Below are positions 3,338 through 31,963 of a stretch of 39,204 bases of DNA, piece by piece. The stretch comes from an uncultured Blautia sp. (GTDB taxonomy: Bacteria > Bacillota > Clostridia > Lachnospirales > Lachnospiraceae): NCBI GenBank assembly GCA_934408705.1, contig CAKRVL010000019.1, positions 1 through 39,204 on the forward strand, given 5' to 3'. A program made the translations under genes and the position numbers. Numbering within the stretch: the stretch's first letter is position 1; each line of letters begins with the position of its first letter. Under the pieces are notes generated by a model. It did no database searches. It was not told the origin of the DNA and saw only the letters and a list, made by a program, of their open reading frames with translations.

Positions 3338-3339
3338 TT

Positions 3340-4008
3340 TCAGATGTTCCTTTCACTTAGAACTCCGCCGTCCATTTCATACACATGGTCGCAAAGAATA
3401 CGGATATCCTCTTCGTTATGGCTTGCCAGCAAAATGGTTTTCCCCATGGCCTTCAGCTCCAGAAGAAGTGCTCTTATCTCTTCAACTCCATGCTTATCCA
3501 GTCCGTTAAATGGTTCATCCAGAATAAGAAATCGAGGATCCTCCATAATGGCCTGGGCAATGCCAAGACGCTGACGCATGCCAAGGGAATATTTTCCTAC
3601 TGGTTTCTTCATATCAGGATCCAGGCCTACCTTACGGAGAATCAGCCGGATATCTGCTTTTGTGATAATTCCGTTCATGTCTGCTAATATTTCCAGGTTT
3701 CGCATACCGGTGTACTGGGTGAGAAAACCTGGCGTTTCTATAATAACGCCCAGACTTTCCGGAAAATCTGTTTCCTGTCCAATCTGTCTGCCAAATACAT
3801 GAATAGTTCCGGTGGTTACAGGAAGAAAACCACAGATGCATTTCATAAGTACAGTTTTTCCGGAACCGTTATTACCTACAATTCCATAAACCTGACCGTA
3901 ATTAAGGTTAAGATTCACTTCCTTCAAAACAAGATCTTCACCAAAGCGTTTGGTAACATTTTTTATTTGTACACAGGAGAATGGTTCATAATTCTTCGAT
4001 CTTATCAT
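3340..4008 (-). CDS. ABC transporter ATPase (ABC-2/LanF-like exporter type)
   Basis: 222 residues with all the ABC hallmarks: Walker A GNNGSGKT (45-52), signature SLGMRQR (141-147), Walker B FLILDEP (160-166), D-loop NGLD and the switch histidine in LLASHNE (197). The short length and the SLGM signature fit ABC-2 exporters of the drug/bacteriocin-immunity type. The start is ATG 4008: GGAGG lies 8 bp before it, whereas the upstream in-frame GTG at 4017 overlaps that Shine-Dalgarno. It overlaps the 3' end of the permease gene by about 20 bp, so the two should be co-expressed as one complex. Confidence 0.9.
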   Translation of the reverse strand: MIRSKNYEPFSCVQIKNVTKRFGEDLVLKEVNLNLNYGQVYGIVGNNGSGKTVLMKCICGFLPVTTGTIHVFGRQIGQETDFPESLGVIIETPGFLTQYTGMRNLEILADMNGIITKADIRLILRKVGLDPDMKKPVGKYSLGMRQRLGIAQAIMEDPRFLILDEPFNGLDKHGVEEIRALLLELKAMGKTILLASHNEEDIRILCDHVYEMDGGVLSERNI

Positions 4009-4717
4009 ACAATACACCTCCGTGAATCCATATCAGCACAAGCAAAAATAATAACAAAAATAACCATAATCCTGATTGACAGTAACCCCAGTCTCCTGAT
4101 GCCGTTATCCATTCTGTAGGATAAAGCCAAAGCTGGTCTTTGAAGTATCGCTGGTGCAGAATGATGCCAAAGTAATAGCAGACAAAGGGAATCCCATACG
4201 CTATATAGGCAGATTCCATGAGGACTCCGCAGATTCCGCCCAGGGAACTTAAGATGCTCCCCAGTACACCTGTTCGTAAAGCCTTAAGAACGAGTTCTTT
4301 CAGTTCATTCCAGGGGAAACCAGCCTTTACTTCCATAGGATAAAATATAACAAAATTAACAAATAGCACTGTGGATATTCCAAGAATCCATACCAGAAAT
4401 CCGGATATCAGAACAGAGAATACTTTTCCCTTCACATAACTTCTGCGATCAGTCCTTGGAAGTGCTCCCTTCAGGAAACCACCCTTGTATTCCTGTAAAA
4501 AGGAGTCACTCCATGGTAATACTGCAGCTACAGGCACTGCGAAGGATACGATCTGTCCCTTTAGAGAATTGTCTAAAAGGTTTATAAAAGTACCACAGGT
4601 TAAGGCTTTACCAGGGAGCGTCGGATAAGAAATGCCAAGAAACAGGGCTGCGCAAGCAATGATCCAGGCTGCCAGAAAATTCTTTCCTGTGAGCATACGT
4701 TTTATTTCTACTCTCAT
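3986..4717 (-). CDS. ABC-2 type permease subunit
   Basis: 243 residues with about six hydrophobic segments (for example AAWIIACAALFLGISY near the N-terminus and LWLFLLLFLLVLIWIHGG at the C-terminus). An amphipathic MRVEIKRMLTGKNF start is typical of ABC-2 permeases. It has no ATP-binding motif. Its ATG overlaps the TGA of the preceding permease gene (ATGA at 4714-4717), and its 3' end overlaps the ATPase start, so it is one of two permeases served by the ATPase at 3340-4008. The arrangement of two small permeases plus one ATPase resembles LanFEG self-immunity exporters. The substrate is unknown. Confidence 0.8.
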   Translation of the reverse strand: MRVEIKRMLTGKNFLAAWIIACAALFLGISYPTLPGKALTCGTFINLLDNSLKGQIVSFAVPVAAVLPWSDSFLQEYKGGFLKGALPRTDRRSYVKGKVFSVLISGFLVWILGISTVLFVNFVIFYPMEVKAGFPWNELKELVLKALRTGVLGSILSSLGGICGVLMESAYIAYGIPFVCYYFGIILHQRYFKDQLWLYPTEWITASGDWGYCQSGLWLFLLLFLLVLIWIHGGVLYDKIEEL

Positions 4718-5604
4718 GCTTTTTCCCCCAGAAATTCAAAGGGATACTTCTTCATGCGGCGGAGTGCCAGATATCCCAGCAGGAATACCAGGATCAGAAA
4801 AAACATACAGGACTGCCAGATCTTAGGCAGTAAAGGATCATAACCTAAGTTATGCTTCCCGTAGACTGCCTGATTAAGGGGACTGATCCAGCAGATCAGC
4901 ACGTTTATCTGATATAGCTGGTATTCCTCCTTGTGGAGAAGAACTCTCAGTACATTGGGCTCCAGAAGGAAACCATAGGCACTGTAGAGTAATCCAAACA
5001 CCATACCTTTTGTCTTCCCGTGATAAAGGTTTCCCACCAGAATCACAAAGCTTAAAGTAAGGGAATAACAAAAAAGTAAAAGAAAAACCTGCATCATACA
5101 CCCATATGGAGAAATACTTTCCATAACTCGCACAGTAGATGGTACCTGAAGATTCTTACCAAGATCAGAATATCCAAGCATAGCAGCTGTCTCACTCCAT
5201 AAATTGCCTGGATAACTGTTCTTCATGCACAATACAGATGTAAATATAAGCATTAGTATGGTGTATAGAACAGTTACCAAAGTGACGTAGACAAATTGAC
5301 CAATAAGCCATTTCTTCTTCGTAGTTCGTATCAGCTGATAAGGAGTCACCGGAGTCATTCTGGGTAGGTCTGAGAACAGAAGAAGTAAAAGCAAGGAGCT
5401 TAACAACACTGCTGTTCCATCTCCAAAGGTTCACAAAAAAGGCTCGATTGCCTGTACCGGCGTATTATAATTCTCCATAACGATGATGATTCTCCCGGTG
5501 AGCAGGAAGCTGAGCACAAATTCCAGAAGAAAGGTGAAGATTACTTTAGGATTGCGAAAAAAGCCAAAGAAATTGTAACGTACAATTCCAAATATCTGCC
5601 TCAT
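4714..5604 (-). pseudogene. ABC-2 permease interrupted by an in-frame TGA (5431-5433)
   Basis: The frame is open from ATG 5604 (MRQIFGIVRYNFFGFF) to a stop at 4714, apart from a single TGA at 5431-5433. Residues read EPFL-stop-TFGDGTAVLL, with both sides in the same frame. The total would be 296 residues, a normal ABC-2 permease length, with hydrophobic segments on both sides of the stop. One G-to-A change of a TGG tryptophan codon would explain it. Alternatives are a sequencing error, UGA readthrough, or re-initiation at GTG 5409, which has GGAG 11 bp upstream and would leave a 231-residue C-terminal piece. Neighbours overlap and are intact. The ATG at 5604 directly follows the lipoprotein TGA (5606-5608). 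Confidence 0.7.
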
Positions 5605-5605
5605 A

Positions 5606-7114
5606 TCAGTAGCCCAGACCGCGATCAATAATGCTGCCATCTACAGCATTAATAGTAAGAAAGCTCCATGTGGGGTAATCTGTAGTATCAGAATAATTTT
5701 CACCATCATATTCTGAGTCTATCTTACGGGATCCGAAGAAATCCCAGACAGGAACCAGAATCCCGGTATGAGCATCTGTAGAGGGTTCATAAATTCTGGC
5801 ATAGCCAAGAACAATACGGTCTATATCATAAATTCTGGAATTCTCATATTCCATATTGTCAGCATTTGTGACAACCATCATTTTTTCGTAAATTTTCATA
5901 ATCTCACTAAATGGGAGCAGACTTAAATTTTCTGTTTTCGTATCTCCGATGGTATAAGGATTGGCATAGGTCATGCTGTCAATCCCATCAGCGTCTACGT
6001 AAAAGTAAAGATTCTCATAAGCCCAGGTTTCCATTGTGCTGTCCATGTCTTCTAAGGCTCCGCCTGCATCCATGGTGTAAGTAAGCGGGACACCATTTAT
6101 GGTGCGATTATAGTAAATGACATAGCCACTTCCAAGATAACTGCTGTTATCATCTGTTCCGATGGATGTATGGATAGCATATTCCCATCCGCATTGCTGC
6201 AAATCAGAAAGCCCCATAGCATCTACCTTTTCCTGAACCAGCTTCTTAGCTTCATCCAGGGAAATACCAACAGCTTCTTCAGTTGGCTTATCATAGGGGC
6301 TCTGGCTTGAATACTCAGACCAGACAGCGTCTGACGGTATTTCTTCTCCACCTTTTTTTAGAGTTTTCTTTATGGTTACGTTTAAAGGATAAGGTCCCCA
6401 GGTTGAGGTACTGTAATAGAATTCGGATCCGTCCTTCATCTGAGCTACACCGTTGAATTCATTGTTTCCCATAACTTCCCCGTCATCACTGTAGCTCTGG
6501 GTTCCTGCTATAGGTCTTCCCTCTACCAGGCTCTTCGTCTCGGGGGCAGATTCATACTGCTCTTCCCAGTATTCAATATCATCATAAATATTATAGTTAA
6601 GGTTACCATCTTCATCCGTTCCCCAATTATTGGGATCCAGATTTCCATTGGCAACATCTTCTTTTAGTTTGTCAATGGTTTTCTTAATTTCTTCTTTCGT
6701 CTTGGTATAATAGCTCTCAGCCGTATAGATTTTCGCATCTTTGAAAAAAGCATCTGTAATACGATCCAGTAAATCCTGGGTAACTTCCGCCGGGGTAACA
6801 GAAATTGCGGAAATCTTCTCTACATCCGGTATTTCCACTGTGGCATCTGTGTTTACAACAAGCTTAGAGCTGTCGTCGGTTACATGGCTTTTATAATTTG
6901 TTGGCGCATTTATCAGGTCGCGGATGGTTGTGCGGGTTGCAGAATCATCGCTTTTTTCCATATTAACAGAACTGCTGTTATCCGCTTCCTTGTATGCATC
7001 CAGTGATGTACTGCCCTTTTGCTTTACAAGAGAAGAATCAGGAGTTCTGGCACATCCTGCCAGCATTCCCATACAAAGGGTTATTCCGATAATTTTTTCT
7101 ATATGTTTTCTCAT
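5606..7114 (-). CDS. Large lipoprotein of unknown function in the ABC operon
   Basis: 502 residues. A lipoprotein signal peptide ends in LAGC (lipobox cysteine about residue 21). A Ser/Asp-rich linker follows and then a mainly soluble extracellular body. That body has tyrosine- and acidic-rich stretches around 150-190 and a C-terminal part ending in TDYPTWSFLTINAVDGSIID, which resembles PepSY/YycH-like regulatory lipoproteins in style only. I do not recognise the family with confidence; similar lipoproteins in Lachnospiraceae are annotated only as DUFs. It is the first gene after the repeat at 7186-7203 and heads the ABC operon, so it may be a sensor or substrate-binding partner. The ribosome binding site GGGAG is rather far (13 bp) from the ATG. 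Confidence 0.65.
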   Translation of the reverse strand: MRKHIEKIIGITLCMGMLAGCARTPDSSLVKQKGSTSLDAYKEADNSSSVNMEKSDDSATRTTIRDLINAPTNYKSHVTDDSSKLVVNTDATVEIPDVEKISAISVTPAEVTQDLLDRITDAFFKDAKIYTAESYYTKTKEEIKKTIDKLKEDVANGNLDPNNWGTDEDGNLNYNIYDDIEYWEEQYESAPETKSLVEGRPIAGTQSYSDDGEVMGNNEFNGVAQMKDGSEFYYSTSTWGPYPLNVTIKKTLKKGGEEIPSDAVWSEYSSQSPYDKPTEEAVGISLDEAKKLVQEKVDAMGLSDLQQCGWEYAIHTSIGTDDNSSYLGSGYVIYYNRTINGVPLTYTMDAGGALEDMDSTMETWAYENLYFYVDADGIDSMTYANPYTIGDTKTENLSLLPFSEIMKIYEKMMVVTNADNMEYENSRIYDIDRIVLGYARIYEPSTDAHTGILVPVWDFFGSRKIDSEYDGENYSDTTDYPTWSFLTINAVDGSIIDRGLGY

Positions 7115-7204: not shown

Positions 7205-8635
7205 TTACCATTTCATGATGATTCGGGTGCCTTTTTCAGGCTCACTTTCAATTTCCATAGGGAATCCATGTAAATCTGCGATTTTCCGACAAAGTGCCAG
7301 TCCAAGTCCAACACTTCCGTTGGCCCGGGAACGTGATTTGTCCACCATGTAAAATGCTTCTGTAACTTTGTCGATATCTTCTGCCGGAATTCCTTTTCCA
7401 AAATCCTGAACTGTCAGTTGTTGTACATCTGCAGTTACAAGGATTCGGGAATTTTCATGAGAGGCCTTTACTGCATTATCAATAAAATTATTTATGGCAC
7501 TTAACATAAGATCTTTATCAAATGTTTTTTTCAGATCAGCAGGCTCACAGTGAAGCTCTAGTGTTATATTTTTCTCCTTCAGGAGGTATAGATTCAGCTG
7601 TTCTGCATCTTCAAGAAAAGATTTTACAAATATTTCCCTGGGAGAGAACTGCTTCTCGCCGGTTTCATATAATCCTGTCAATTCCAGCATTTTGACTGAC
7701 AGTCTGGAAAGCCTGCGGCACTCATTTGAAATGTAGGTGAGTGCACGTTCCTGCTGTTCCTTGCGGATTCTGACGGTGAGGATGGTATCTGCATAGCCGA
7801 TTATTGATGTCATGGGGGTTTTAAGCTCATGAGCCAGACTGCCCATCAGCTGACGCTGGGACTGGTTTACGGTGGAAAGATTTTCTACCTGTTCTTTTAT
7901 TTTGGAAGTCATCTGATTAAAGCTTCTGCCAACCTGGGCAAGCTCTGTATATCCTTCTTCCGGTACCCGTATGTCATAGTTTCCCTGGGATACAGAAACA
8001 GCTGCTTCTTTTAGTCTGGTAAGAGGCGTCATGACTTTTCGCAGGCTGAAAAAAAGAATGATTCCAGTGAGCAGGATCAGAATCAGAGTAAGTGCACCTA
8101 CCTGATAAAACAGGCTTCGGTTACGGGACAGAACATCAGAAATATCCTTGTAGGTAATAATCTGGTAATTGATGTCAGTATTTGCTATTGAGGAAGAATA
8201 AGAAAATAATAAAAGAGTTTTTCCGTCAATCCTGCAGATAACCGGATCGTATCCATAAATCCCATAATCATAGAACCTTTCATTGGTGTTTCCCATCTGC
8301 TTCTTAATATTTACTGCATCAAATTCATAGTTAGTCCCATTATAAAGTTCTTCATCATCCAGATATAACGCTGCAGTATCATGGAAAATCTGACGGAAAT
8401 TGTAGATTAGGATCCGGTTACGGAGTTTCTCGTCGGAAACGACAGACTGATTGATGGAAAGACCACGCTTGTTTTCAAACTGAGAGAGATTATTCCGAAA
8501 TTTATTATCTTCATAGCTGTTGATATATCGGATGCTCTGATCCTTCCAACGAGATGAGGTATAAAAAAATATAGCGGAGGATAAAATAAGGATCACGCAG
8601 CATACCTGTAAATAGATTTTGGTAAAAAGCTTCAA
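7205..8635 (-). CDS. Sensor histidine kinase
   Basis: 476 residues. TM1 (about 8-26) and TM2 (about 176-198) flank an extracellular sensor region of about 150 residues. A HAMP domain follows (LRKVMTPLTRLKEAA to FNQMTSKI). The HisKA box LAHELKTPM has the phospho-accepting His near 268. The GHKL ATPase has its N-box (NNFIDNAVKA), G1 (DFGKGI) and G2 (GLGLALC). It overlaps the regulator gene by ATGA (8632-8635), so the two form one two-component operon. The downstream operon begins 90 bp after this gene and carries the shared repeat, so the ABC/lipoprotein genes are the likely regulon. The signal is unknown; cell-envelope stress or a peptide is a guess. Confidence 0.93.
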   Translation of the reverse strand: MKLFTKIYLQVCCVILILSSAIFFYTSSRWKDQSIRYINSYEDNKFRNNLSQFENKRGLSINQSVVSDEKLRNRILIYNFRQIFHDTAALYLDDEELYNGTNYEFDAVNIKKQMGNTNERFYDYGIYGYDPVICRIDGKTLLLFSYSSSIANTDINYQIITYKDISDVLSRNRSLFYQVGALTLILILLTGIILFFSLRKVMTPLTRLKEAAVSVSQGNYDIRVPEEGYTELAQVGRSFNQMTSKIKEQVENLSTVNQSQRQLMGSLAHELKTPMTSIIGYADTILTVRIRKEQQERALTYISNECRRLSRLSVKMLELTGLYETGEKQFSPREIFVKSFLEDAEQLNLYLLKEKNITLELHCEPADLKKTFDKDLMLSAINNFIDNAVKASHENSRILVTADVQQLTVQDFGKGIPAEDIDKVTEAFYMVDKSRSRANGSVGLGLALCRKIADLHGFPMEIESEPEKGTRIIMKW

Positions 8636-9297
8636 ATCTCCACCTCCAGTCGATAGCCGATACGGGGAATTGTTTTAATCTTGTCCTGCCATCCCAGCTT
8701 CTTACGGATACGTCCTACATGTGCGTCTACAGTTCTGGTCTCTCCTTCAAATTCTACTCCCCAAAGACCTGTGAGAAGCTGTTCTCTTGTAAGGGCTTTG
8801 TTGGGATTACGGACGAACATCATAAGGCAATTGTATTCCATTGGCTTCAGATAGATTTCTTCCCCATTTCTGGTAACACAGTGGCTTATGGTGTCTATGG
8901 TAACGTCTTCAATCTGTATCTGCTCCTGGGTGTTTCCATGGCGTTCCAGAACCTTCTCCAGGCGAACCATGACCTCCAGCATCTCAAAGGGCTTCACAAT
9001 ATAGTCTTCGGCGCCATCCTTCAGTCCCTTCACCTTGCTTGCAATGTCTGCCCGTGCAGTGAGAAAAATCACAGGAATGCTGTAGTTCTTAAGTTCAGGT
9101 AAAAGTGCATAGCCATCTTTGCCAGGAAGCATAATATCTACCAGTGCACAGTGGAAATGGTGGTCTGCCGCAATTCCGGCACTTGCTTCATCTCCATCTA
9201 GGTAGCTCATTGTTTCATATCCGGCGACCTCCAGGTTCATACAGAGCAGATCATTAATTGCAGGTTCATCTTCTATTACTAGGATTCTGGCTTTCAT
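8632..9297 (-). CDS. OmpR/PhoB-family response regulator
   Basis: 221 residues. The receiver domain has the acidic pair D10/E11, phospho-acceptor D54 (ALVDIMLPG), T80 in FLTARAD and K102 in VKPF. The C-terminal winged helix carries the usual ISHCVTRNGEEIYL hairpin and ends with RTVDAHVGRIRKKLG and TIPRIGYRLE. The start is ATG 9297 (MKARILVIEDE), with AAAGGA just upstream; longer reading frames lack a ribosome binding site. It is first in the operon with the sensor kinase. Its own promoter has TATAAT (9331-9336) and the repeat at 9355-9372 instead of a good -35 box, suggesting autoactivation. Confidence 0.93.
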   Translation of the reverse strand: MKARILVIEDEPAINDLLCMNLEVAGYETMSYLDGDEASAGIAADHHFHCALVDIMLPGKDGYALLPELKNYSIPVIFLTARADIASKVKGLKDGAEDYIVKPFEMLEVMVRLEKVLERHGNTQEQIQIEDVTIDTISHCVTRNGEEIYLKPMEYNCLMMFVRNPNKALTREQLLTGLWGVEFEGETRTVDAHVGRIRKKLGWQDKIKTIPRIGYRLEVEI

Positions 9298-9330
9298 TTC
9301 ATATCCTTTCTTTTGGCTTGAGTAATCTTT

Positions 9331-9336
9331 ATTATA
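9331..9336 (-). promoter_or_regulatory. -10 box of the two-component operon
   Basis: TATAAT on the minus strand, 34 bp upstream of ATG 9297. The position of a -35 box is occupied by ACACCA, far from TTGACA, and overlaps the repeat at 9355-9372. That is typical of a promoter needing an activator. Confidence 0.5.
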
Positions 9337-9354
9337 CTCTTTTTTGACATATAT

Positions 9355-9372
9355 GGTGTAACCAGATTGTAA
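9355..9372. promoter_or_regulatory. Candidate response-regulator box B
   Basis: On the plus strand GGTGTAA (9355-9361) and ATTGTAA (9366-9372) are spaced 11 bp apart. On the minus strand this reads TTACAATCTGGTTACA, differing at one position from the TTACAATCCGGTTACA of box A. It lies 18 bp upstream of the -10 box, one helical turn closer than box A. Confidence 0.6.
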
Positions 9373-9378
9373 CGAAAT

Positions 9379-9420
9379 AAAAAAAGAACACAAACGGTCG
9401 TTTCCTGACGGTCTGTGTTC
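9379..9420 (-). terminator. Intrinsic terminator of the NSS symporter gene
   Basis: GAACACA (9386-9392) pairs with TGTGTTC (9414-9420). A further inner stem (GTC/GAC) closes a GTTTCCT loop, and on the minus strand the hairpin is followed by seven T. It separates the symporter gene from the regulator promoter. Confidence 0.8.
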
Positions 9421-15277: not shown

Positions 15278-15306
15278 AGTATAACGTAAAACGCAGTTTC
15301 TGTAAA
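15278..15306 (-). promoter_or_regulatory. Promoter of the YitT operon
   Basis: Minus strand: TTTACA at 15301-15306 and TATACT at 15278-15283 with a 17-bp spacer. The -35 hexamer is exactly the loop of the terminator hairpin at 15292-15315. Confidence 0.65.
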
Positions 15307-15315
15307 GAAACTGCG
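15285..15315 (-). terminator. Intrinsic terminator of the cobalamin-transport operon
   Basis: On the minus strand CGCAGTTTC, TTTACA loop, GAAACTGCG form a perfect 9-bp stem, followed by TTTTACG. It lies 17 bp after the stop of the ATPase gene. The T-tract is short, so some readthrough into the YitT operon is possible. Confidence 0.75.
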
Positions 15316-15332: not shown

Positions 15333-16433
15333 TTATACAAAATGTATTTTCTTGCTTTTTTCAGCTGCTTTTATAAGCTCTCCAAGCCGCTCATTACAGC
15401 TTCCTATCGGTACCTCTGTACAGATTACCCTTTCACAGCTTTCCATCGCCCTAAGAGCCTTCTGGAAGGCTTCTTCGCTGATTTCCATAAAGGGAGCCTC
15501 TGTGATCACCTGTGAAGCCAGCAGCCTTGCCAGACGATAATCTACATCATTTGTATATAGAATACCTGTTATAAAAGGTGTGTGCTCCTTCTGCAGCCGG
15601 CGGAATACAGGAATGCCGGTTCCATTACCGCAGATCACAAATGTCTTTGCCTCTCCTTCTGGCTTTGGAAGCTCAATACTTCCAAATAACGGATCAAAAA
15701 AACCATTATTAATATCGTAAAGCTCCCGGATCATATTTTCCTCAAAAATATCTTCTGGTTTTCCAAAGTGGGAAATAGTATCACCCTTTACACAAATAAT
15801 CTTATCTGCGATTTTCTGTGCCAGATCGATCTCATGCAGAGACATGATAACTGTGATCTTTTTTTTCTTTGCCATATCACGAAGTATGGACAAAAGATCC
15901 AGCTTGTGCTTGATATCCAAAAAAGAGGTTGGCTCATCCAGAATAATTATATCAGGCTCCTGACAGATTGCGCGTGCAAGAAGCACTCTCTGACGCTGTC
16001 CGTCACTGATATTGTTGAAATCACGGCTGCCAAGCGATTCTGCATGTACGGCTCTCATGGCTTCCTCTACTTTTTCTTCATCTTCTCTTGTGAGAAGTCC
16101 AAGTCTTCCGGTATACGGATAACGGCCAGTGGCCACAATATCATGACAGGTCATAAGCTCTGGCTTCATTCGTTCAGTGAGAACAACTGCCATACGTGTA
16201 GACAGATCCCTGAAGGAAAAGGCTGTCAGATTCTGATTGTCGAAATAAACCTTTCCTCCTATGATCTGAAGCTGTCTTGTAATACTTTTCAGAATGGTAG
16301 ATTTACCGGAACCATTAGGACCGATCAGAGTCACGATCTCACCTTTTTCTATTCCGATACAGATATCATGGATCAGGGCCTTTCTGTTATATCCGACAGA
16401 AAGGTTGTCCATGTGAAAATAGTAATTATCCAT
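15333..16433 (-). CDS. btuD: Cobalamin ABC importer ATPase, BtuD-like, with extra C-terminal domain
   Basis: 366 residues. Residues 1 to about 250 are a FecE/BtuD-type ATPase: Walker A GPNGSGKS (38-45), signature ISDGQRQR (142-149, with D instead of the usual second G), Walker B IIILDEP (162-168) and switch His200. Typical members stop near 255. This one continues with about 110 residues starting at TFVICGNGTGIPVFRRL, which look like a small Rossmann-like domain with a glycine-rich turn. The gene lies 2 bp after the permease gene in an operon headed by a cobalamin riboswitch, so I assign it to B12 or corrinoid uptake rather than siderophores. The function of the extension is unknown. Confidence 0.85.
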   Translation of the reverse strand: MDNYYFHMDNLSVGYNRKALIHDICIGIEKGEIVTLIGPNGSGKSTILKSITRQLQIIGGKVYFDNQNLTAFSFRDLSTRMAVVLTERMKPELMTCHDIVATGRYPYTGRLGLLTREDEEKVEEAMRAVHAESLGSRDFNNISDGQRQRVLLARAICQEPDIIILDEPTSFLDIKHKLDLLSILRDMAKKKKITVIMSLHEIDLAQKIADKIICVKGDTISHFGKPEDIFEENMIRELYDINNGFFDPLFGSIELPKPEGEAKTFVICGNGTGIPVFRRLQKEHTPFITGILYTNDVDYRLARLLASQVITEAPFMEISEEAFQKALRAMESCERVICTEVPIGSCNERLGELIKAAEKSKKIHFV

Positions 16434-16435
16434 TA

Positions 16436-17488
16436 TCAGTTCCCTCTCTTCTTTCGTAACATCATGAAAATAACAACTGGTGCTCCAAAGATGGAGGTAA
16501 CGGTGCTGATATTAAGCTCCAGCGGAGCAAATGCCATTCTGGCAATCAGATCACACATCATACAGAAAACCGCACCGCCAAGGAAGGTTCCCGGAATGAT
16601 GATCAACGGTCTTGATGTGTTAAAGCTTCTCTTCATCAGAAATGGAACTGCGATTCCTATAAAGGAAATCGGGCCTGCAAAAGCGGTTACTGTTGCAGAC
16701 AGAATACTGGAAAGCAGGATCAGCGCAACACGGAAAAATTTTATATTTACACCCATGCTCTGTGCATAGGCCTCTCCAAGCTGATAAGCACCGATTGGCT
16801 TTGATAACAGGAAGGTAAGGATCAGAGTGATCCCTATAACTATGCAGGAAATATAAACATTACTCCAGCTCATACCGGAGAAACTTCCCTGTGACCAGCC
16901 GTGAAGATTCACAATATCGGAATCATCTGCAAAGGTTACTACAAAATCAGTTACAGCAGAACAGATATAACCGATCATGATTCCGGCAACCAGAAGTGTT
17001 GCCATGTGCTTTATTCTTTTTGAGATCAGAAGGATAAAGCCAATGGAAATCAGGGAGCCGATAAAGGCTGCAATGATCAAGGTATAAGAGGTTACAGTAG
17101 CTGCTCTTCCAAGATAATAGATCATAGTAAATGCAACCACCATTTTTGCACCGGATGAAATACCCAGTACAAAAGGTCCTGCTATGGGATTTTCAAAAAA
17201 AGTCTGAAGGAGAAATCCGGATAAGGATAGCGCTCCGCCAAGAATCGCAGCCATCAGGATACGGGGAAAACGTATTTTCCAGATAATGCTGTATTCTTTA
17301 GTATCTGTTACTCTTTTCAGCAGGATATCTACGATTTCAGACAGGGAAATATTTACATTTCCTGTATTGATATTAAGTACCGTTATCAGGCCAAAAGCCA
17401 GGATAAGCAATATGAAAACCACAGCATAACGGGATCTTCTTTTAAAGTTTTCCATGTGGAAGCTTGTTTCATGGGATTGTCTGTTCAT
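16436..17488 (-). CDS. btuC: Cobalamin ABC importer permease, BtuC/FecCD family
   Basis: 350 residues with about nine or ten membrane helices. The FecCD/BtuC hallmarks are visible: RFPRILMAAILGGALSLSG (about 69-87), FENPIAGPFVLGISSGA (about 92-108), GWSQGSFSGMSW in the middle and PFLMKR near the C-terminal coupling region. The family exists as homodimers that import corrinoids, haem or ferric siderophores with a BtuF-type binding protein and a BtuD-type ATPase. The riboswitch upstream points to cobalamin. ATG 17488 has GGAG 9 bp upstream. It lies 46 bp after the binding-protein gene and 2 bp before the ATPase gene. Confidence 0.88.
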   Translation of the reverse strand: MNRQSHETSFHMENFKRRSRYAVVFILLILAFGLITVLNINTGNVNISLSEIVDILLKRVTDTKEYSIIWKIRFPRILMAAILGGALSLSGFLLQTFFENPIAGPFVLGISSGAKMVVAFTMIYYLGRAATVTSYTLIIAAFIGSLISIGFILLISKRIKHMATLLVAGIMIGYICSAVTDFVVTFADDSDIVNLHGWSQGSFSGMSWSNVYISCIVIGITLILTFLLSKPIGAYQLGEAYAQSMGVNIKFFRVALILLSSILSATVTAFAGPISFIGIAVPFLMKRSFNTSRPLIIIPGTFLGGAVFCMMCDLIARMAFAPLELNISTVTSIFGAPVVIFMMLRKKRGN

Positions 17489-17534
17489 TTTATTTTACTC
17501 CATTTATGATTGTCCAATGATAGCGGACTGTAAG

Positions 17535-18689
17535 TCAGCTAAGTTTATGAAGAAAAGTCATATCCGCTTCGCTTCCGCCGGTTAACATCAGATTGAAATC
17601 ATTGATCAGCTCTCCAATGGTATCCGTGTGCTGATACATAGAATCATCTGTTACCCATACATTTCCCTCTTTTACTGCCTTGAAATCTGCCATCAGACTG
17701 TCTTTCGCAAGGAGATCGTCAAGACTGTCCACTGTAGCGTCAATACTGGTGTTGTAGATAAGATAATCCGCATCAACAGCAGTATTGTAAAATTCCTCCA
17801 TGGTTATAGATACAGATGTTTTGCCACTGTCGTCCTGAAGATCTGCAAAAGCATTTCTTCCACCTGCAACCTCGATCATACTGGAAATATAATCCTTAGG
17901 ATTGCGGACTACAGGAGAACCGCTGGTGTTGATATAGAAAAAGGCAACTGTTTTCTCTGTATTCTGGAAATCTTTTAATTTCTCAATGATCTGTGCCTGC
18001 TGACTGAAGAAGGATTCTGCTTCCTCCTCCTTATTCATCATAGCGCCGTAAAGCTTGATCCATTCAGTACGTCCAAGGGGCTGGCTTTCGTAGCTGGAAC
18101 GATCAATGAAAACAGGGATTCCCAAAGTCTCGATCATCTCTTGTACTTTTGGAGCATGAAGGATCATGGTGGATTCAATGGCAAGATCACAATCCTCTCC
18201 TACCAGAAGCTCATAATCCGGTTCGTCATATTTTCCTGCATAAGTCATTGCTCCGTCATTGATTGCATCTGAAGCAGCCTGGATATACCAGCCTGAAGCA
18301 TCCAGACCGGATAACTTAATAGAATCCACACTTCCAATGGCATCAAATAATGCCATTGGAGATGTAGCCGCCATATAAATAGTATCAAGAGGCTGCTGTA
18401 ATACACGGATTTCTTCATCCAGACCGTCCGGCGCTTCTTTACCCTCAGGAACCACCAGATACCTGGCACTATCATGGACATCAAGAAGCTTATAACCGTC
18501 ATTATAATAATAAACATCAAAGCACTGGGCAAAGGACAGATCCATAGAAGATTCGTATGTCAGACCTTCAATTTCCGGAGCTTCTGCTTTAGTGCTATCT
18601 TCTGCCCATATAGGAGTAACGTTAGTGAATGTTATGATAACTGCTGTAAAAACACTTAATAATTTATATTTCAGCTTTTGCTTATACAT
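17535..18689 (-). CDS. btuF: BtuF/FepB-like substrate-binding protein of the cobalamin importer
   Basis: 384 residues. A Sec signal peptide (about 1-29, ending in WAED) has no lipobox, so the protein is not an obvious lipoprotein, which is unusual for a Gram-positive binding protein. The N-lobe (about 38-200) and C-lobe (about 205-384) resemble the class III fold, with a long linker helix (EEEAESFFSQQAQIIEKLKDF). The C-lobe includes VAGGRNAFADLQDDSG, typical of this family. The N-lobe is clearly related to the last 230 residues of the upstream 853-residue protein. GGAG precedes ATG 18689. Without a lipid anchor or membrane helix it must be retained by the permease or by the surface protein. 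Confidence 0.8.
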   Translation of the reverse strand: MYKQKLKYKLLSVFTAVIITFTNVTPIWAEDSTKAEAPEIEGLTYESSMDLSFAQCFDVYYYNDGYKLLDVHDSARYLVVPEGKEAPDGLDEEIRVLQQPLDTIYMAATSPMALFDAIGSVDSIKLSGLDASGWYIQAASDAINDGAMTYAGKYDEPDYELLVGEDCDLAIESTMILHAPKVQEMIETLGIPVFIDRSSYESQPLGRTEWIKLYGAMMNKEEEAESFFSQQAQIIEKLKDFQNTEKTVAFFYINTSGSPVVRNPKDYISSMIEVAGGRNAFADLQDDSGKTSVSITMEEFYNTAVDADYLIYNTSIDATVDSLDDLLAKDSLMADFKAVKEGNVWVTDDSMYQHTDTIGELINDFNLMLTGGSEADMTFLHKLS

Positions 18690-18707
18690 TTCGTACTCTC
18701 CTGTAAA

Positions 18708-21269
18708 TTATTCCTCATCATTTGTTACAAAAATTGCCTCGTATGCTTTCTCCCATTCTGCCCTGGCTTCGTCACTCTTCTCATCAGCGGAACGGTCTAC
18801 AATAAACGGGATCTTCAGAGTGGAGTATTTCTCAGCGGCATCAGCCAGAAGCTTTTCCTTAGATTCCACTTCAGAGGCTTCTGCTGGAAGGATATCAGAG
18901 GAAAGAATGGAAAGTCCGCATTTTGTTTTTACGAGAGTTTTATAATCTGTATCCTCAGAGGTTCCTGCAAAAGCAAGAGTTCCATCTTCAAGTGCTGCCA
19001 AAAGGCTGTCCGCTGTGCAATCCTCTTTTGCCACCCCAAGGCTGGTGATCTTGTCGGTGAGCTCAAGCTTGTCCAGAATGTTAAGTGCATCTACGGAAGC
19101 AGCATAAACAGATTCAACAGGCTGATTGATCACAATTACATCTTTGTCAAGGCCTGCAGGAATCACTGCACCATCGGGTACGATCAGATATTTTATAACA
19201 TTGCCCATATAAAGCTTCTCTGTACCTGCTGTGTCCTGGGAATTTTCAGAATCAACAGTTTCTGCCTTTCTGGCGGTATCAGCAGTCATGTCAATTTCAA
19301 GAAGGGTAATACCCTTTGCATAGTGGTAAAGCTTGAAATATCTGGCATGCTCAAGTGTAGTCTCATCTTTGTATTCAAGTCCTGTAATTTCAGGAGCATC
19401 ATCATCCAGTTTTTTGTTTCCGGTAGACAGCATACTGTTATCATTTGCCGGGTTGTCCTTATCGGTTTTCTTAGTATCGTTGGCACCCTTTAATGCAATG
19501 TAAATGGTATAATTGATCTCATGGGCCTGAGACATTCTTGTTGTCATACCGATAATGGTATTATTCTGGTTGAGGGCTACCGGAATAGTAAATGTAGATG
19601 TTCCACCGCCGCATGCTCCATAATATTTATTTCCATTTGCCTTCACATATCCATAATACTCACTGCTGAATATAATGGTGGCATATGCCTGTCCTCCGGT
19701 AACTGTTACTTTACTGCAGGAGATGCTTACCTTTCCGGTTCCACCAGACCATGAAAAACTGTCCGGTGTGTAAGTTCCGTCAGTTAATGTGGTAGAACTG
19801 TTTACAGCTGCTGTTCCACCGTTAAGATCAGATTCATATTTTGACTCCTTATCCGGTTTTTTATCTGGCTTTGGAGTTGGTGTAGGAGTAGGTGTTTTGG
19901 TTGGTTCAACAGTTGGTACAGGGGTAGGTGTGGGTGTTACAGTTGTATCTGCATTATTGTCTGGCACAGGTGTTTCTTCTGGTGCTGGAGTTGTATCCGG
20001 TGTAATGGGATCATCCTGTACATCTCCTATTTTATTTAAGGTTTCAGACTGGAATGTTAAAGTTCTGTCATACCAGATCTGGTTCTTATGAGAAAATGCA
20101 GCTACAGAAAAACCTTTGTCCAGGGCTTCAACAGGAATCTCGTATGTATATTTGCCATTAGATTCATCTACCACATATGGGACCCATGTGGATGAGTCAG
20201 CTGCGGCAGCTTCCTCTTTGGTTCCAAGGAACAGATAATCATAGCCTGTTCCGCTTAAAGTAAGAACTGCAGTCATCTTTCCGTTTTTGGAGGTAAGAAC
20301 ACAGTCAACAACACGGAACATAGATGCACTTGAATTTACAGTTACGTTATAAATTCCACTGTCACAGATTCCCTCAGAAGGAGCAGCAGTTGGTGCTGGG
20401 GAAGCTGTGGGGGCTGGTGTCTGGGTTGCTACAGGTGCTTCTGTAGGCTGTGGCTGGTCAGCTGTTTTGATTCCGGGAATTGTAATGGTAAATTCACCGC
20501 CCTGGGAATATTTGTACCAGGTTCCATCTTTTTGTTTGCGGACTGCAATCTGGTAGGTCTGGTCATTCTCGCTGGCAGGAACTGCAAATTCAAAGGTATA
20601 ACCCTCTCCTGTTGGAACACCTACGCAGACATTTTCAGGATCATTCTGAGCATCTTCCACACTTCCAAGATAGATGGCATCGTAATGGTTCTTTAAGCTT
20701 ACCAGGGTGACGATTGTCTTATCTCCATCCTGTTTAACAGACGTACTTGAAAAACGGAACATACCAAACTGACCGCTTCCATCTGGCTTGTCAACTGTGA
20801 TATCACTGCCATCTGGTTTCACTTCTGCTGAAGTAGTCTCGTCAGTTTTGCCTGTTACTACTGCATCTGTTTTCTCTGTTACTTCTTCTGCTTTTGCAGT
20901 CTCTGCAATCTCTGGTGTGATCTGAGCTGGCTGCTCTGCCTCAGGTAACTGCGCTGGTGATGGTGTCAGCTGTGCGGAAGGTGTTTCTTCTGGAGTCGGT
21001 ATTTCCTCCGGTGTCGGTGTTTCCTCTGGTGCAGGTGTTTCCACTGGTGCCGGTGTTTCTTCCGGAACCAGTGTTGTATCTGGTGTGGATTCTGTATTTT
21101 CTTTCGCTGGAATTTCTGTAACAACTGCTTTTTCTGCATTTGCTTCCTCCTCCGGTGAAGCAGATATCTGCATCTTGGCTTCTTCTTCAGCCTGTGCAAA
21201 TACAGCCGGAGTAATAGTCATTGCTACTGAGAGGAACAGCGCAAGAAAGCGTTTTGAATTTCTTTTCAT
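18708..21269 (-). CDS. Secreted multidomain protein of the cobalamin operon, with half binding-protein domain
   Basis: 853 residues. A signal peptide (1 to about 25, VFAQAEE) is followed by an acidic Pro/Thr/Glu linker with ETPAPEETPTPEE-type repeats (about 60-110). Beta-rich module 1 spans about 165-270 and module 2 about 300-415; they resemble each other (YDAIYLGSVEDA versus YDYLFLGTKEEA). A second Pro/Thr linker (about 430-470) leads to module 3 (about 490-591; DGTYTPDSFSW to MTTRMSQAHEINYTIYIAL), loosely NEAT-like. The last part (about 623-853) matches only the N-lobe of the neighbouring binding protein. No sortase motif, C-terminal helix or lipobox is visible. GAGGG precedes ATG 21269. 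As first gene under the cobalamin riboswitch, it probably captures corrinoids outside the cell; this is inference. Confidence 0.7.
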   Translation of the reverse strand: MKRNSKRFLALFLSVAMTITPAVFAQAEEEAKMQISASPEEEANAEKAVVTEIPAKENTESTPDTTLVPEETPAPVETPAPEETPTPEEIPTPEETPSAQLTPSPAQLPEAEQPAQITPEIAETAKAEEVTEKTDAVVTGKTDETTSAEVKPDGSDITVDKPDGSGQFGMFRFSSTSVKQDGDKTIVTLVSLKNHYDAIYLGSVEDAQNDPENVCVGVPTGEGYTFEFAVPASENDQTYQIAVRKQKDGTWYKYSQGGEFTITIPGIKTADQPQPTEAPVATQTPAPTASPAPTAAPSEGICDSGIYNVTVNSSASMFRVVDCVLTSKNGKMTAVLTLSGTGYDYLFLGTKEEAAAADSSTWVPYVVDESNGKYTYEIPVEALDKGFSVAAFSHKNQIWYDRTLTFQSETLNKIGDVQDDPITPDTTPAPEETPVPDNNADTTVTPTPTPVPTVEPTKTPTPTPTPKPDKKPDKESKYESDLNGGTAAVNSSTTLTDGTYTPDSFSWSGGTGKVSISCSKVTVTGGQAYATIIFSSEYYGYVKANGNKYYGACGGGTSTFTIPVALNQNNTIIGMTTRMSQAHEINYTIYIALKGANDTKKTDKDNPANDNSMLSTGNKKLDDDAPEITGLEYKDETTLEHARYFKLYHYAKGITLLEIDMTADTARKAETVDSENSQDTAGTEKLYMGNVIKYLIVPDGAVIPAGLDKDVIVINQPVESVYAASVDALNILDKLELTDKITSLGVAKEDCTADSLLAALEDGTLAFAGTSEDTDYKTLVKTKCGLSILSSDILPAEASEVESKEKLLADAAEKYSTLKIPFIVDRSADEKSDEARAEWEKAYEAIFVTNDEE

Positions 21270-21316
21270 TTTTTTCCCTCGATTCTTCCTGGTATTAAAT
21301 ATTTTCTGAATAAATC

Positions 21317-21354
21317 ACAAAAAAGTACCTGCTTCCAATATGAAAACAGGCACT
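21317..21354 (-). terminator. Attenuator terminator of the cobalamin riboswitch
   Basis: Minus strand: AGTGCCTG (21347-21354), 15-nt loop, CAGGTACT (21324-21331), then six T. The arms pair fully, counting one G-U. It sits between the aptamer and the start of the 853-residue gene. The switch therefore probably works by transcription termination when cobalamin is bound. Confidence 0.75.
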
Positions 21355-21429
21355 AAAAGTTCAATATATTCTTCAGTCGGATATATTTATGAGAATGAAG
21401 TGCTTTCTTCGGAAGCTTTCATTAACGAA

Positions 21430-21593
21430 TTCAGCAGGTTTCCTGACTCACAGTTCAATACGAAATCCCACCTTCTCAGTAGATTCTACCAATGGTATCA
21501 TAGGATTATCATCCCTGCTTACAGTGACCGGATCGTTCAGGCCTTTCACCTGATTCCCTCTTAGCCTGCAGAGACTTCTGCATAGGCACTGAA
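21430..21593 (-). promoter_or_regulatory. Cobalamin (adenosylcobalamin-type) riboswitch
   Basis: On the minus strand the conserved blocks appear in the expected order: GGGAATCAGGTGAAAGGCCT, then CGGTCACTGTAAGC, then GAGAAGGTGGGATTT, and finally the B12 box GAGTCAGGAAACCTGC (about 21434-21449). TTCAG at 21589-21593 can pair with CTGAA at 21430-21434 to close P1. It lies 16 nt after the predicted start site and upstream of a terminator hairpin. This element identifies the ligand of the downstream transport operon (18708-15333) as a cobalamin. Confidence 0.93.
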
Positions 21594-21616
21594 ATCGGAT
21601 TTATTCAATTCAACTC

Positions 21617-21645
21617 ATTATATCAGACTGATTTGTCGAAATCAA
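21617..21645 (-). promoter_or_regulatory. Promoter of the cobalamin riboswitch operon
   Basis: Minus strand: TTGATT at 21640-21645 and a perfect TATAAT at 21617-21622 with a 17-bp spacer. The start site is about 21609, a few bases before the aptamer. It lies just after the VanW gene stop (21667). Confidence 0.75.
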
Positions 21646-21666: not shown

Positions 21667-23097
21667 TCATTGCTTATACTTACTGTAACCTACCTCATCT
21701 GTATGAAGAAGGACTCCATCCTGGTCATAAACACTTCTGTAGGTTCGGCAAGTATTAGGATCAGAATGCTCTGTTGTGATTTTCACCGTGTTATTGTCCG
21801 TTTTGGTTCCGTAAACAGATACGGATACAGCTTCTTCCTTCTCATCATAAGAAGCTGTTATCCTGATAGGATAAGCTGTATTATTCTGAAAACGGAAATC
21901 CTGTCCTCCCCAGACAACAGCTGCGTCAAGTCCATCTTCTACATAGTCAATGCGGGCGGCATGGTTATGACGTTCCACGATAGTCAGATCTGACTGCAGA
22001 CATGCCATAAACAATGTAGTGGATATCTGGCAGATTCCACCTCCGATATCCTGTGCATGTTCACCGCCGACAATTACGGTTGCTTCCTTATACCCGCGCT
22101 CTTCTGTACGAGGTCCTAAAGTATCATTATAGGAAAAAATCTGCCCCGGCTGTAATTCAACACCATCACATGCCTCTACAGCAAGCTTAAGATTGGCAAC
22201 ACGATTTTTTGTTCCACCACCATAAGTGGTATATGTTCCCAGAAGATCAAGGAATGGAAGAGCCTCAATCTCTTCTGTAGATACATCTGGCAGCGTAATC
22301 TTAAGAGGAATAGTGATAGTCTCACCCTCTTTAGCTTTTTTTAGTTTCCGTGCTGCTGCTTTTACATCAAAAGAAATTCCATTTACAGCAGGAATAATCA
22401 CATTATTCTCTCCGAGAGAAGCATCCCTGGCTTCTGTATGTATTTCCTCAAAATAAGCATCCATATCCAGCTCATCCGGAGCCTGCTCAACAGTAGGACA
22501 TTCAATAACAGCATCATAATCTTCAATGGAAATTGCTTTAAGGATGGCTTCCTTCAAAGCATCCATATCAGGTCCTGTTCCGGTTTTTCCTTTTGTAATA
22601 ATAAGTTCTGTGTCTGTAAGCTCACAGGTGGTCTGAACAGTGGCAGAGCCTTTCATTATATCAGCATCCTCAAGGACCTTATCCAGCTCACTTTTATTTC
22701 TGGCTTCAGGCATCAGTGTAACCTCTTCTTTGGTCTTACTGTTCATTAGCTCAATCCTGTCCGTTCCGTGTGTAAACCAGGAACCGTGCCCTAAAGAATA
22801 TGCACTTTCTACAATAGACTTCACATCCAGACCAAGAACCGGGTAGACACACACCTTAAATTCCTTGTCATTTAGGATAACTGTCATCGTTGCATCCTGG
22901 TATTTCTCCTGAAAGTCTCTGGAGATAGCATCGATGGCCTCCTCCTTTGTCATTCCCTGGATGGCAATACCGTTTATCTTAAGTTTCTTCCAGATCACAT
23001 TATCTGTGAGGAAATGACACCACAGTCCATATGCGCCAACCAGAATCACCAGCAACAGTAAAAGCCGGATAATACTGTTTTTCAATTGTTTTTTCAT
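21667..23097 (-). CDS. VanW-family protein with N-terminal membrane anchor
   Basis: 476 residues. One membrane helix at about 10-30, then an extracellular part with a peptidoglycan-binding-type region (INGIAIQGMTKEEAIDAISRDF and a second copy-like region near 100-200). A VanW domain lies at about 300-430 (GQIFSYNDTLGPRTEERGY, DIGGGICQISTTLF, ERHNHAARIDYVEDGLDA). VanW-type proteins are common on Firmicutes cell surfaces; their biochemical role is not settled despite the link to vancomycin clusters. It lies 29 bp after hisI, with AAAGG a little far from the ATG, and may be the last gene of the his transcript. No clear terminator follows before the cobalamin promoter. Confidence 0.85.
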   Translation of the reverse strand: MKKQLKNSIIRLLLLLVILVGAYGLWCHFLTDNVIWKKLKINGIAIQGMTKEEAIDAISRDFQEKYQDATMTVILNDKEFKVCVYPVLGLDVKSIVESAYSLGHGSWFTHGTDRIELMNSKTKEEVTLMPEARNKSELDKVLEDADIMKGSATVQTTCELTDTELIITKGKTGTGPDMDALKEAILKAISIEDYDAVIECPTVEQAPDELDMDAYFEEIHTEARDASLGENNVIIPAVNGISFDVKAAARKLKKAKEGETITIPLKITLPDVSTEEIEALPFLDLLGTYTTYGGGTKNRVANLKLAVEACDGVELQPGQIFSYNDTLGPRTEERGYKEATVIVGGEHAQDIGGGICQISTTLFMACLQSDLTIVERHNHAARIDYVEDGLDAAVVWGGQDFRFQNNTAYPIRITASYDEKEEAVSVSVYGTKTDNNTVKITTEHSDPNTCRTYRSVYDQDGVLLHTDEVGYSKYKQ

Positions 23098-30070: not shown

Positions 30071-31963
30071 CTATTTCTGCTTTTTTCTTGTGTGATTGTT
30101 GCGGATGGTTTTCTTTGGAGCTTTGCTGCGGCCTGGATTTCCAGAATGCTGATTTCCTCCCCGGCCTTCACGGATAGGGCGTATCAGACATTTTTCTCCA
30201 TACCCTATCAGATCCATACGCCCGGCAAGCTTAAGCCCTTCCAGCACAAGTTCTCTGTTGGCTGGATTTTTATATTGCATCAGAGCGCGCTGGATGGATT
30301 TCTCATGAGCATTTCTGGGTACATAAACCTTCTCCCCTGTAAGTGGATGGATGCCTGTGTAATACATACATGTAGATAAGGTAGATGGAGTAGGATAAAA
30401 ATCCTGCACCTGTTCCGGTGTAAAGCCAAGATCACGAACATACTCTGCCAGCTTCACTGCTTCCTTCATGGTGCATCCTGGATGGGAGGACATGAAATAA
30501 GGAACAGCATACTGCTGTAAGCCGGCTTTTTTATTCGCTTTATCAAATTCCTTCAGGAATCTCTCATATACTTCATGGGACGGCTTTCCCATATATTTCA
30601 GAACCTGATCAGATACATGCTCAGGTGCCACACGAAGCTGCCCGCTCACATGATATTTTGCAAGCTCATTTAAAAAAGTCTTATCAGGATCAGCAAGCAC
30701 ATAATCGAAGCGCACTCCTGACCGGACAAATACTTTCTTTACTTTAGGAAGATCGCGAAGCTTGCGAAGAAGTGCAACATAATCCTTGTGATCAGCGGTC
30801 AGGTTCTTACATGGTTCAGGAAAAAGACAATGCCGGTTTTTACACACGCCCTTAGTAAGCTGCTTTTTACAAGATGGGAGACGAAAATCGGCAGTAGGAC
30901 CGCCTACATCATGGATGTAGCCCTTGAAATCTTTATCCTTAGTCATATGAACTGCTTCTTTTAGAATAGATTCATGGCTTCTGGTCTGCAGGATTCTTCC
31001 TTGATGGAATGTCAGGGCACAAAAGCTGCAGCTACCGAAGCAGCCGCGGTTGCTTGTAAGGCTGAACCTGATTTCCTCCAGGGCGGGGATTCCTCCCTCC
31101 TTCTCATACATAGGATGATAACTTCCGGTATATGGAAGATCATATACATCATCCATTTCCTCCTGTGTAAGAGGCAGTGCCGGCGGATTCTGGATCACAT
31201 AGCCCTTGTTCCCATAGGATTCGGCCATAGTACCGGCAGTGAAGGGATCTGTATTCTGATACTGGACAGCAAAGCTTCTGGCATAGGCCTGTTTGTCTGT
31301 CTGCACCTCCTCAAAGGATGGAAGCACAATGGGTTCATAGGTGCGGGATAAATCTTTACATTTATAGACCGTTCCTGCCACATACGTGATCTCGCTGACT
31401 GGAATCCCACTGTCCAGTGCCTCTGCTATCTCAATAATTGAGTGTTCTCCCATTCCATAGGAAATCAGGTCTGCTCCAGAATCTATAAGAACGCTGTGCT
31501 TTACTTTATTTTCCCAATAATCGTAATGTGCCATCCTTCTCAGACTTGCTTCGATTCCACCCAGAATAATGGGAGTTTTCTTAAAAGTCTGACGAATCAG
31601 ATTACTGTACACAATAGTAGCACGATCCGGGCGTAAACCCATTTTACCGCCAGGAGAATAAGAATCCTTCTGGCGGTGCTTTTTTGCAACTGTGTAATGA
31701 TTGACCATGGAGTCCATATTACCGGCAGTAACTAAAAACCCAAGACGAGGCTCTCCGAATACGGCAATACTCTCCTTTTTCCGCCAGTCTGGCTGCGGAA
31801 TGATTCCCACCCTATAACCATGACGCTCAAGAATGCGGCTGATGATAGCGCTACCAAAAGAGGAGTGGTCTACATAGGCATCTCCTGTTACATAGACAAA
31901 GTCCACCTGATCCCAGCCTCTGGCCTCCATATCTTTTTTATCAACTGGTAAAAACTGTGACAT
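30071..31963 (-). CDS. YgiQ-family radical SAM protein
   Basis: 630 residues. An N-terminal B12-binding-like/UPF0313 domain starts FLPVDKKDMEARGWDQVDFV. The radical SAM cluster is CFGSCSFC (about 306-313), and a C-terminal DUF3362-type segment ends in a Lys/Arg-rich tail (KKTIRNNHTRKKQK). This UPF0313/YgiQ family is widespread and its reaction is unknown. The gene follows the alarmone synthetase gene by 12 bp. Confidence 0.93.
   Translation of the reverse strand: MSQFLPVDKKDMEARGWDQVDFVYVTGDAYVDHSSFGSAIISRILERHGYRVGIIPQPDWRKKESIAVFGEPRLGFLVTAGNMDSMVNHYTVAKKHRQKDSYSPGGKMGLRPDRATIVYSNLIRQTFKKTPIILGGIEASLRRMAHYDYWENKVKHSVLIDSGADLISYGMGEHSIIEIAEALDSGIPVSEITYVAGTVYKCKDLSRTYEPIVLPSFEEVQTDKQAYARSFAVQYQNTDPFTAGTMAESYGNKGYVIQNPPALPLTQEEMDDVYDLPYTGSYHPMYEKEGGIPALEEIRFSLTSNRGCFGSCSFCALTFHQGRILQTRSHESILKEAVHMTKDKDFKGYIHDVGGPTADFRLPSCKKQLTKGVCKNRHCLFPEPCKNLTADHKDYVALLRKLRDLPKVKKVFVRSGVRFDYVLADPDKTFLNELAKYHVSGQLRVAPEHVSDQVLKYMGKPSHEVYERFLKEFDKANKKAGLQQYAVPYFMSSHPGCTMKEAVKLAEYVRDLGFTPEQVQDFYPTPSTLSTCMYYTGIHPLTGEKVYVPRNAHEKSIQRALMQYKNPANRELVLEGLKLAGRMDLIGYGEKCLIRPIREGRGGNQHSGNPGRSKAPKKTIRNNHTRKKQK

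Follow-up and report, generated by a model that had tools for sequence, protein, structure and literature searches.

The 39,204-nucleotide stretch analysed here (contig CAKRVL010000019.1 of an uncultured Blautia sp.; hereafter the window) carries an operon that combines a cobalamin riboswitch, a large secreted protein and an ATP-binding cassette (ABC) importer. The operon is encoded entirely on the minus strand, in the order riboswitch, 853-residue open reading frame (ORF), substrate-binding protein (SBP), permease and ATPase (Table 1). The riboswitch match exceeds the curated cut-off of 31.5 bits and is accompanied by a promoter-like site and a terminator-like hairpin, as the initial annotation had proposed in reading the leader as a riboswitch with promoter and attenuator. 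The BtuF-, BtuC- and BtuD-like genes that it placed downstream are also present, as PF01497, PF01032 and PF00005 occur together in one operon, and by this family content the operon encodes a FecCD/BtuCD-type ABC importer. The system is real, widespread and tied to B12.

Table 1. Elements of the riboswitch-controlled operon in the window, listed from the leader to the end of the operon.
Feature	Position	Strand	Evidence or remark
Promoter-like site TTGATT-17-TATAAT	21617..21645	-	Consensus match only
Cobalamin riboswitch aptamer	21416..21608	-	RF00174, 106.7 bits, E 6.3e-26
Terminator-like hairpin between riboswitch and first gene	21324..21354	-	Terminator scan; -17.8 kcal/mol
853-residue secreted protein	18708..21269	-	Signal peptide by eye, Pro/Thr-rich linkers, M1, M2, M3, half SBP
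Module M1, residues ~173-264	20478..20753	-	Beta-sandwich; block-wise predicted local distance difference test (pLDDT) of 83-90 across its core
Module M2, residues ~303-413	20031..20363	-	Predicted NEAT fold, without YxxxY
Module M3, residues ~496-599	19473..19784	-	Predicted NEAT fold
Half SBP, residues 624-853	18711..19400	-	N-lobe only
Full SBP	17535..18689	-	PF01497, 140.6 bits; no lipobox by eye
FecCD/BtuC-type permease	16436..17488	-	PF01032, 256.2 bits
BtuD-type ATPase with C-terminal extension	15333..16433	-	PF00005
Possible operon terminator, hairpin then TTTTA	15292..15315	-	Read by eye

The 853-residue protein, whose homologues were scored over residues 160–853 (best 120 of 3957), had been described as carrying three beta-type modules on Pro/Thr linkers. 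The modules and linkers are real, but the modules are not three equal copies. Structure prediction suggests that M2 and M3 are NEAT-type beta-sandwiches, and M1 is a sandwich by secondary structure that the fold comparison does not clearly assign to the NEAT type; ranking the Foldseek matches of the complete model by E-value brought up unrelated beta proteins as well and was set aside. At the sequence level, M1 shows a weak likeness to M2 (18 bits), while M3 is similar to neither by the same test. The Pfam NEAT model PF05031 does not match the window protein; it matches 26 of the 33 M2–M3 proteins of our set A3 at E ≤ 0.01, with a best value of 8.9e-9. The YxxxY motif on the last strand, which we take to be the heme-ligand motif of Isd-type NEAT domains and which is seen as YHHFY in PDB 4h8q, is missing from all 33 M2 sequences and from 32 of the 33 M3 sequences. 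The C-terminus, residues 624–853, matches the first ~220 residues of the SBP encoded by the next gene (30% identity, E 3e-26). This half SBP is conserved, and its origin by a frameshift in an SBP gene was rejected, because the matched half SBPs in 24 window-like loci end at residues 210–238 of the full SBP and each of these loci also has an SBP gene scoring above 200 bits. Both the predicted NEAT fold of two modules and the half-SBP C-terminus had been overlooked.

The importer proteins score below the curated BtuFCD equivalog thresholds. The best NCBIfam match of the permease is BtuC, at 206.9 bits with a cut-off of 334; the ATPase matches the corrinoid ABC ATPase model NF007082 at 196.3 bits over residues 7–346 (cut-off 537) and FecE at 210.9 bits over residues 7–243. 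No BtuF model appears among the SBP matches, and the SBP sequence, used on its own as a query against the PDB, gave no match. Cys167, Glu172, Met175 and His178 of the SBP are invariant in 18 of 18 sequences and, judged by this conservation, could serve as metal or axial ligands. In contrast to many homologues, the full SBP has no lipobox in the window or in loci L001–L005; among SBPs at window-like loci the lipobox pattern occurs in 14 of 24, and elsewhere in 32 of 45.

The architecture recurs beside cobalamin riboswitches in related Clostridia; a search for it in other Firmicutes had been suggested by the initial annotation. Close full-length relatives come from Blautia glucerasea and other Clostridia, and a riboswitch lies upstream in four of five loci; the fifth is truncated by the contig start and belongs to the same genome as the first. 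For a wider survey, we defined 77 module regions as distinct places with a match covering a module, among the matches listed, and added one half-SBP place, G013:C178. Matches confined to the SBP part, G001:C32 (already represented by L002) and the split contig matches of G249 were excluded. A covariance model built from six of the relatives' riboswitches detected a cobalamin riboswitch at 54 of the 77 regions, 53 of them on the same strand as the first module gene and preceding it by less than 2.5 kb. Both SBP and BtuC are present in 60 regions, 47 of which have the riboswitch, and 12 regions have no SBP above 150 bits. The background rate is far lower: 52 riboswitches in 20 genomes (~61 Mb; top candidates per genome scored) correspond to about one expected across the 77 regions, which total 1.02 Mb and in which 56 were observed. 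These 20 genomes were picked for a module riboswitch, so that each holds at least one by construction, which does not apply to the per-genome counts; in six of them the module riboswitch is the only cobalamin riboswitch found. All 23 riboswitch-less regions were submitted to Rfam, which returned one transfer-messenger RNA and no cobalamin riboswitch. Seven of these regions are truncated by a contig end ahead of the leader (L050, L058, L060, L063, L079, L080 and L111), one is borderline (L106), six belong to type C as defined below (L091, L093, L096, L098, L099 and L101), and nine are real misses (L052, L061, L065, L075, L087, L092, L095, L117 and L119). A class-wide search matched 36 of 391 genomes, 22 of them at 1e-10 or better and the other 14 weakly, mostly at the N-terminus. 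Among 20 new regions from 18 genomes in this later sample, 16 carry the riboswitch, and Rfam confirmed 11 of the 12 submitted; the misses are L127, L135 (type-C like), L137 (importer without riboswitch) and L139. In the regions examined, the homologues do not occur mainly at heme or siderophore loci without a riboswitch, which was the pattern that would have spoken against the initial annotation.

Three types of gene set were distinguished. Type A comprises the riboswitch, an exported CbiK, an M2–M3 protein, SBP, BtuC and BtuD, sometimes fused or reordered. In type B, the window type, the large M1/M2/M3 protein has a half SBP at its end and CbiK lies outside the operon; this type is represented by 24 loci (L001–L005 and 19 others from the 77 regions). 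Type C has no riboswitch, and its modules adjoin an ABC-2 type transporter; sirohydrochlorin/precorrin genes are adjacent in five of six such loci (L091, L093, L098, L099 and L101), with gene names assigned by eye except for the L091 genes and the CbiK of L091 and L093. From this gene content, type-C loci possibly represent a tetrapyrrole export side. CbiK homologues occur in 46 of the 77 regions, 39 of which have the riboswitch, and the family assignment follows from PF06180 (278.7 bits for L062). The collected set contains 70 CbiK homologues from 69 loci, of which 67 keep both GHG and GDH, whose histidines are presumably the functional pair of CbiK. Export appears probable for 63 of the 70 (38 by pattern, 25 by eye), while five have no signal and two are ambiguous. 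Relatives in the PDB are CbiK (1qgo), the heme-binding FetB (9b86) and the chelatase 2xvx. All seven type-B genomes examined have a second riboswitch locus that encodes an exported CbiK together with one M2 module, these genomes having been chosen because a separate M2 match was already known (loci L140–L146 in genomes G001, G003, G235, G121, G194, G240 and G105). At L004, a second riboswitch with exported CbiK and M2 (3521–5891) lies beside the type-B operon of that locus. Very large module proteins were also found directly behind riboswitches (L100:5887-10209, L049:2306-7090, L056:13006-17985 and L055:2-3427), with extra Big_2 domains in L100 and L049 and LRR_5 and FMN_bind in L056; the L100 region has no importer genes.

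The distribution across a family sample of 299 genomes, with module presence called at E ≤ 1e-10, links the system to B12 synthesis. Modules were found in 109 genomes and CbiD, a marker of de novo corrin synthesis, in 171; CbiD is present in 107 of the 109 module genomes versus 64 of the 190 module-less ones, and modules are absent from 126 of the 128 CbiD-negative genomes. Among 23 genomes picked for module loci, all have CbiD and CbiC, and 19 have a B12-binding_2 domain. Of 93 genomes for which the positions of both cbiD and modules are listed, 39 have cbiD within 20 kb of a module. The gene cbiN, described as cobalt-specific in the accessible text of PMC2667541, occurs in 55 genomes, 54 with CbiD and one without, and grouping CbiM by length reproduces this list exactly. 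Within the 171 CbiD genomes, modules and cbiN coincide in 10 (33.8 expected), with modules only in 97, cbiN only in 44 and neither in 20 (Fisher p 5e-16, kinship ignored). Kinship was addressed on a CbiD tree of 93 genomes that includes all 10 double carriers but only 27 of the other 97 module producers. Of the 22 independent pairs on this tree, 3 were same, 10.7 opposite and 8.3 tied (median p 0.057, range 0.035–0.092).

Because it is almost confined to B12 producers, shows complementarity to cbiN and is under cobalamin control, we read the system, with about even confidence, as a cobalamin-riboswitch-controlled cobalt-supply system of B12-producing Clostridia, an assignment drawn from sequence comparison. 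Metal chelates are the usual cargo of FecCD-type importers, and flat tetrapyrroles are what NEAT domains hold; taken together with the exported CbiK, a relative of cobalt chelatases, these features suggest that the cargo may be a cobalt-tetrapyrrole. At low cobalamin, the leader would read through. An exported CbiK-type chelatase, supplied from the operon in many relatives and probably from a separate riboswitch locus in the seven type-B genomes examined, could insert cobalt into a tetrapyrrole outside the membrane. The NEAT-like modules may hold the cobalt-tetrapyrrole and relay it to the SBP, with the half SBP as a putative helper, and the BtuCD-like proteins would import the complex, or its cobalt, for corrin synthesis. 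In a simpler version, the chelatase would pass free Co(II) to the SBP. The most specific form, a tetrapyrrole cobaltophore, is put forward tentatively and is rather unlikely to hold in full: an extracellular sirohydrochlorin-type tetrapyrrole would be loaded by CbiK, carried by NEAT modules, imported by a BtuCD-like transporter and switched by cobalamin, and type-C loci, whose modules adjoin an ABC-2 type transporter and CbiL/CbiK-like and uroporphyrinogen genes, would form the export side.

Several observations weigh against cobalt supply. The window operon itself has no CbiK, and the genome-level data come from relatives standing in for the window's own genome. Two genomes, G066 and G259, have modules and neither CbiD nor CbiC. 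The complementarity is weaker against any CbiM-family protein (cobalt/nickel type) than against cbiN (both 30, modules only 77, CbiM only 45, neither 19; p 9e-8), and after phylogenetic correction it keeps the same direction and is marginal. Well-supported branches yield just five pairs, too few to reach 0.05; for cbiN-type CbiM these split into 0.1 same and 3.6 opposite, and for any CbiM into 0.3 and 2.6. The family survey scored the top candidates per genome, absences were counted in genomes of unstated completeness, and the cobalt-importer tally covers cbiN and CbiM, with NiCoT, CorA and others outside it. At the protein level, a histidine of M3 possibly facing the pocket is missing in 7 of 33 sequences, and for the permease and ATPase the BtuC and corrinoid-ATPase models are the closest match or close to it. 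NEAT domains and the CbiK relative FetB are named heme-binding in solved structures, and the sole PDB match of the SBP profile, at 35.9 bits, is Lmo2184, presumably a heme protein. In addition, B12 makers could also salvage corrinoids.

The initial annotation had proposed that the secreted protein scavenges corrinoids outside the cell and hands them over to the importer. In this explanation, the modules would bind cobamides or cobinamide and pass them to a true BtuFCD, and producers would save cost or recover leaked cofactor. The B12 control and the pairing of an exported multi-module protein with a BtuFCD-like importer agree with it. Scavenging as the main task is nevertheless doubtful, because a scavenger should be commonest in auxotrophs and the distribution is the opposite, with modules in just 2 of 128 CbiD-negative genomes, where salvage would be most needed; scavenging by auxotrophs was rejected as the main role on this basis. 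Corrinoid capture predicts neither the complementarity to cbiN nor an exported cobalt chelatase. We consider it the main rival, possible though less probable than cobalt supply. Uptake of heme or another tetrapyrrole is unlikely: here NEAT modules and a FetB/CbiKP-like chelatase would import heme, siroheme or precursors such as sirohydrochlorin, and B12 control would follow from imports that feed or compete with corrin synthesis. The predicted NEAT fold of heme relays, the kinship of CbiK with FetB, which the accessible text of PMC13402209 describes as exchanging metals in porphyrins, the Lmo2184 match and the occurrence of type-C modules among uroporphyrinogen/sirohydrochlorin genes all point in this direction. 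The absence of YxxxY lowered heme uptake from first choice to a rival, precursor import is not expected to replace a cobalt importer, and no heme-uptake genes were noticed in the loci whose ORFs were read, with no systematic search made. Least probable is a lineage effect, in which the gene set would be tied to cbi clusters by descent and riboswitch and the module/cbiN split would be clade history. The median p after pairing and the few well-supported pairs speak for it; the consistent direction of the pairs, and the fact that module state changed no fewer than 22 times on the 93-row tree, speak against it.

Known systems share parts of this architecture. In Gram-positive bacteria, Isd-type relays run from NEAT proteins to an SBP and an ABC importer. 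The window-type system resembles them in placing NEAT modules on a secreted protein that would feed a FecCD-type importer (as far as described in the available part of PMC13402209), and differs in the missing YxxxY, the cobalamin riboswitch, the exported CbiK and the cbi linkage. CbtJKL of Sinorhizobium meliloti, first taken for a cobalamin transporter, is a BtuF-like ABC importer under adenosylcobalamin riboswitch control that moves Co(II); NEAT modules, an exported chelatase and a half SBP go unmentioned in the accessible portion of that report (PMC7689651), and the likeness is one of description. The nearest precedent for the chelatase link is in Desulfovibrio, where one B12-element controls cbiK-cbiL and btuCDF; this organism is Gram-negative, and NEAT modules are unreported there in the text available (PMC545781). 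The CbiMNQO cobalt importer of the energy-coupling factor type shows a nearly identical producer-only distribution, as the cbiN counts indicate, although its proteins are unrelated to those of the window system. To our knowledge, CbiMNQO has no extracellular binding proteins. The proposed counterpart of the Bacteroides protein BtuG holds as a functional analogy only: BtuG carries a beta-propeller domain according to the accessible text of PMC8941943, and the Pfam scan of the window revealed no beta-propeller family, M2 and M3 being NEAT-like sandwiches by prediction and the C-terminus an SBP lobe. More broadly, BtuG, BtuH and BtuJ are likewise extra surface proteins in cobalamin transport loci, but they have other folds, an outer-membrane setting and demonstrated B12 binding (PMC8941943 and PMC12751083, accessible parts), whereas the window system is known from its sequence. 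Among the papers listed by searches of the accessible literature, which leaves subscription journals mostly outside and thus does not prove absence, none describes this system in its title, opening abstract lines or the text consulted, whether under NEAT domains with cobalamin, corrinoids, cobamides or B12 or under B12 surface proteins of Firmicutes.

With cbiN in 54 of 171 CbiD genomes, the module system, carried by 97 of the remaining 117, is a candidate cobalt route. If cobalt supply is correct, NEAT domains would gain a ligand beyond heme, and the exported CbiK chelatases of Gram-positive bacteria would be explained. Some annotated cobalamin transporters would move to cobalt supply, as happened with CbtJKL, and predictions of B12 sharing in the gut would change. 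The counting of BtuFCD as B12 uptake in gut genomes (PMC6593275, accessible text) would be questioned for part of them.

Within the leader, a possible antiterminator pairs ACCTGCT at 21439 with AGCAGGT at 21333, an exact 7-nucleotide match in the window and one of 6 nucleotides in L001; this alternative pairing of the terminator hairpin would engage the 3' strand of the riboswitch. Among ten leaders checked, the pairing occurs in the window and partly in L001, and it was rejected as a general feature. The number of promoter-like sites in the region is close to that expected by chance (19 versus 14.8), and terminator-like sites number 10 versus 4.7 expected. The closing terminator claimed for the operon is visible by eye as a hairpin followed by TTTTA, but the terminator scan did not list this hairpin (15315–15292), which has too few T for the scan. 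Directly upstream of the riboswitch lies a gene for a VanW-domain protein (21667–23097), and a similar gene was seen by eye in the same place in L001–L003.

Elsewhere in the window, a DUF6034 protein has as neighbours an ABC ATPase and several ORFs that match no Pfam family (5606–7114 and 2153–5409), and a two-component system (7205–9393) adjoins this region. A radical SAM protein with DUF3362 (30071–31963), unrelated to the operon, adjoins a RelA/SpoT-like gene.

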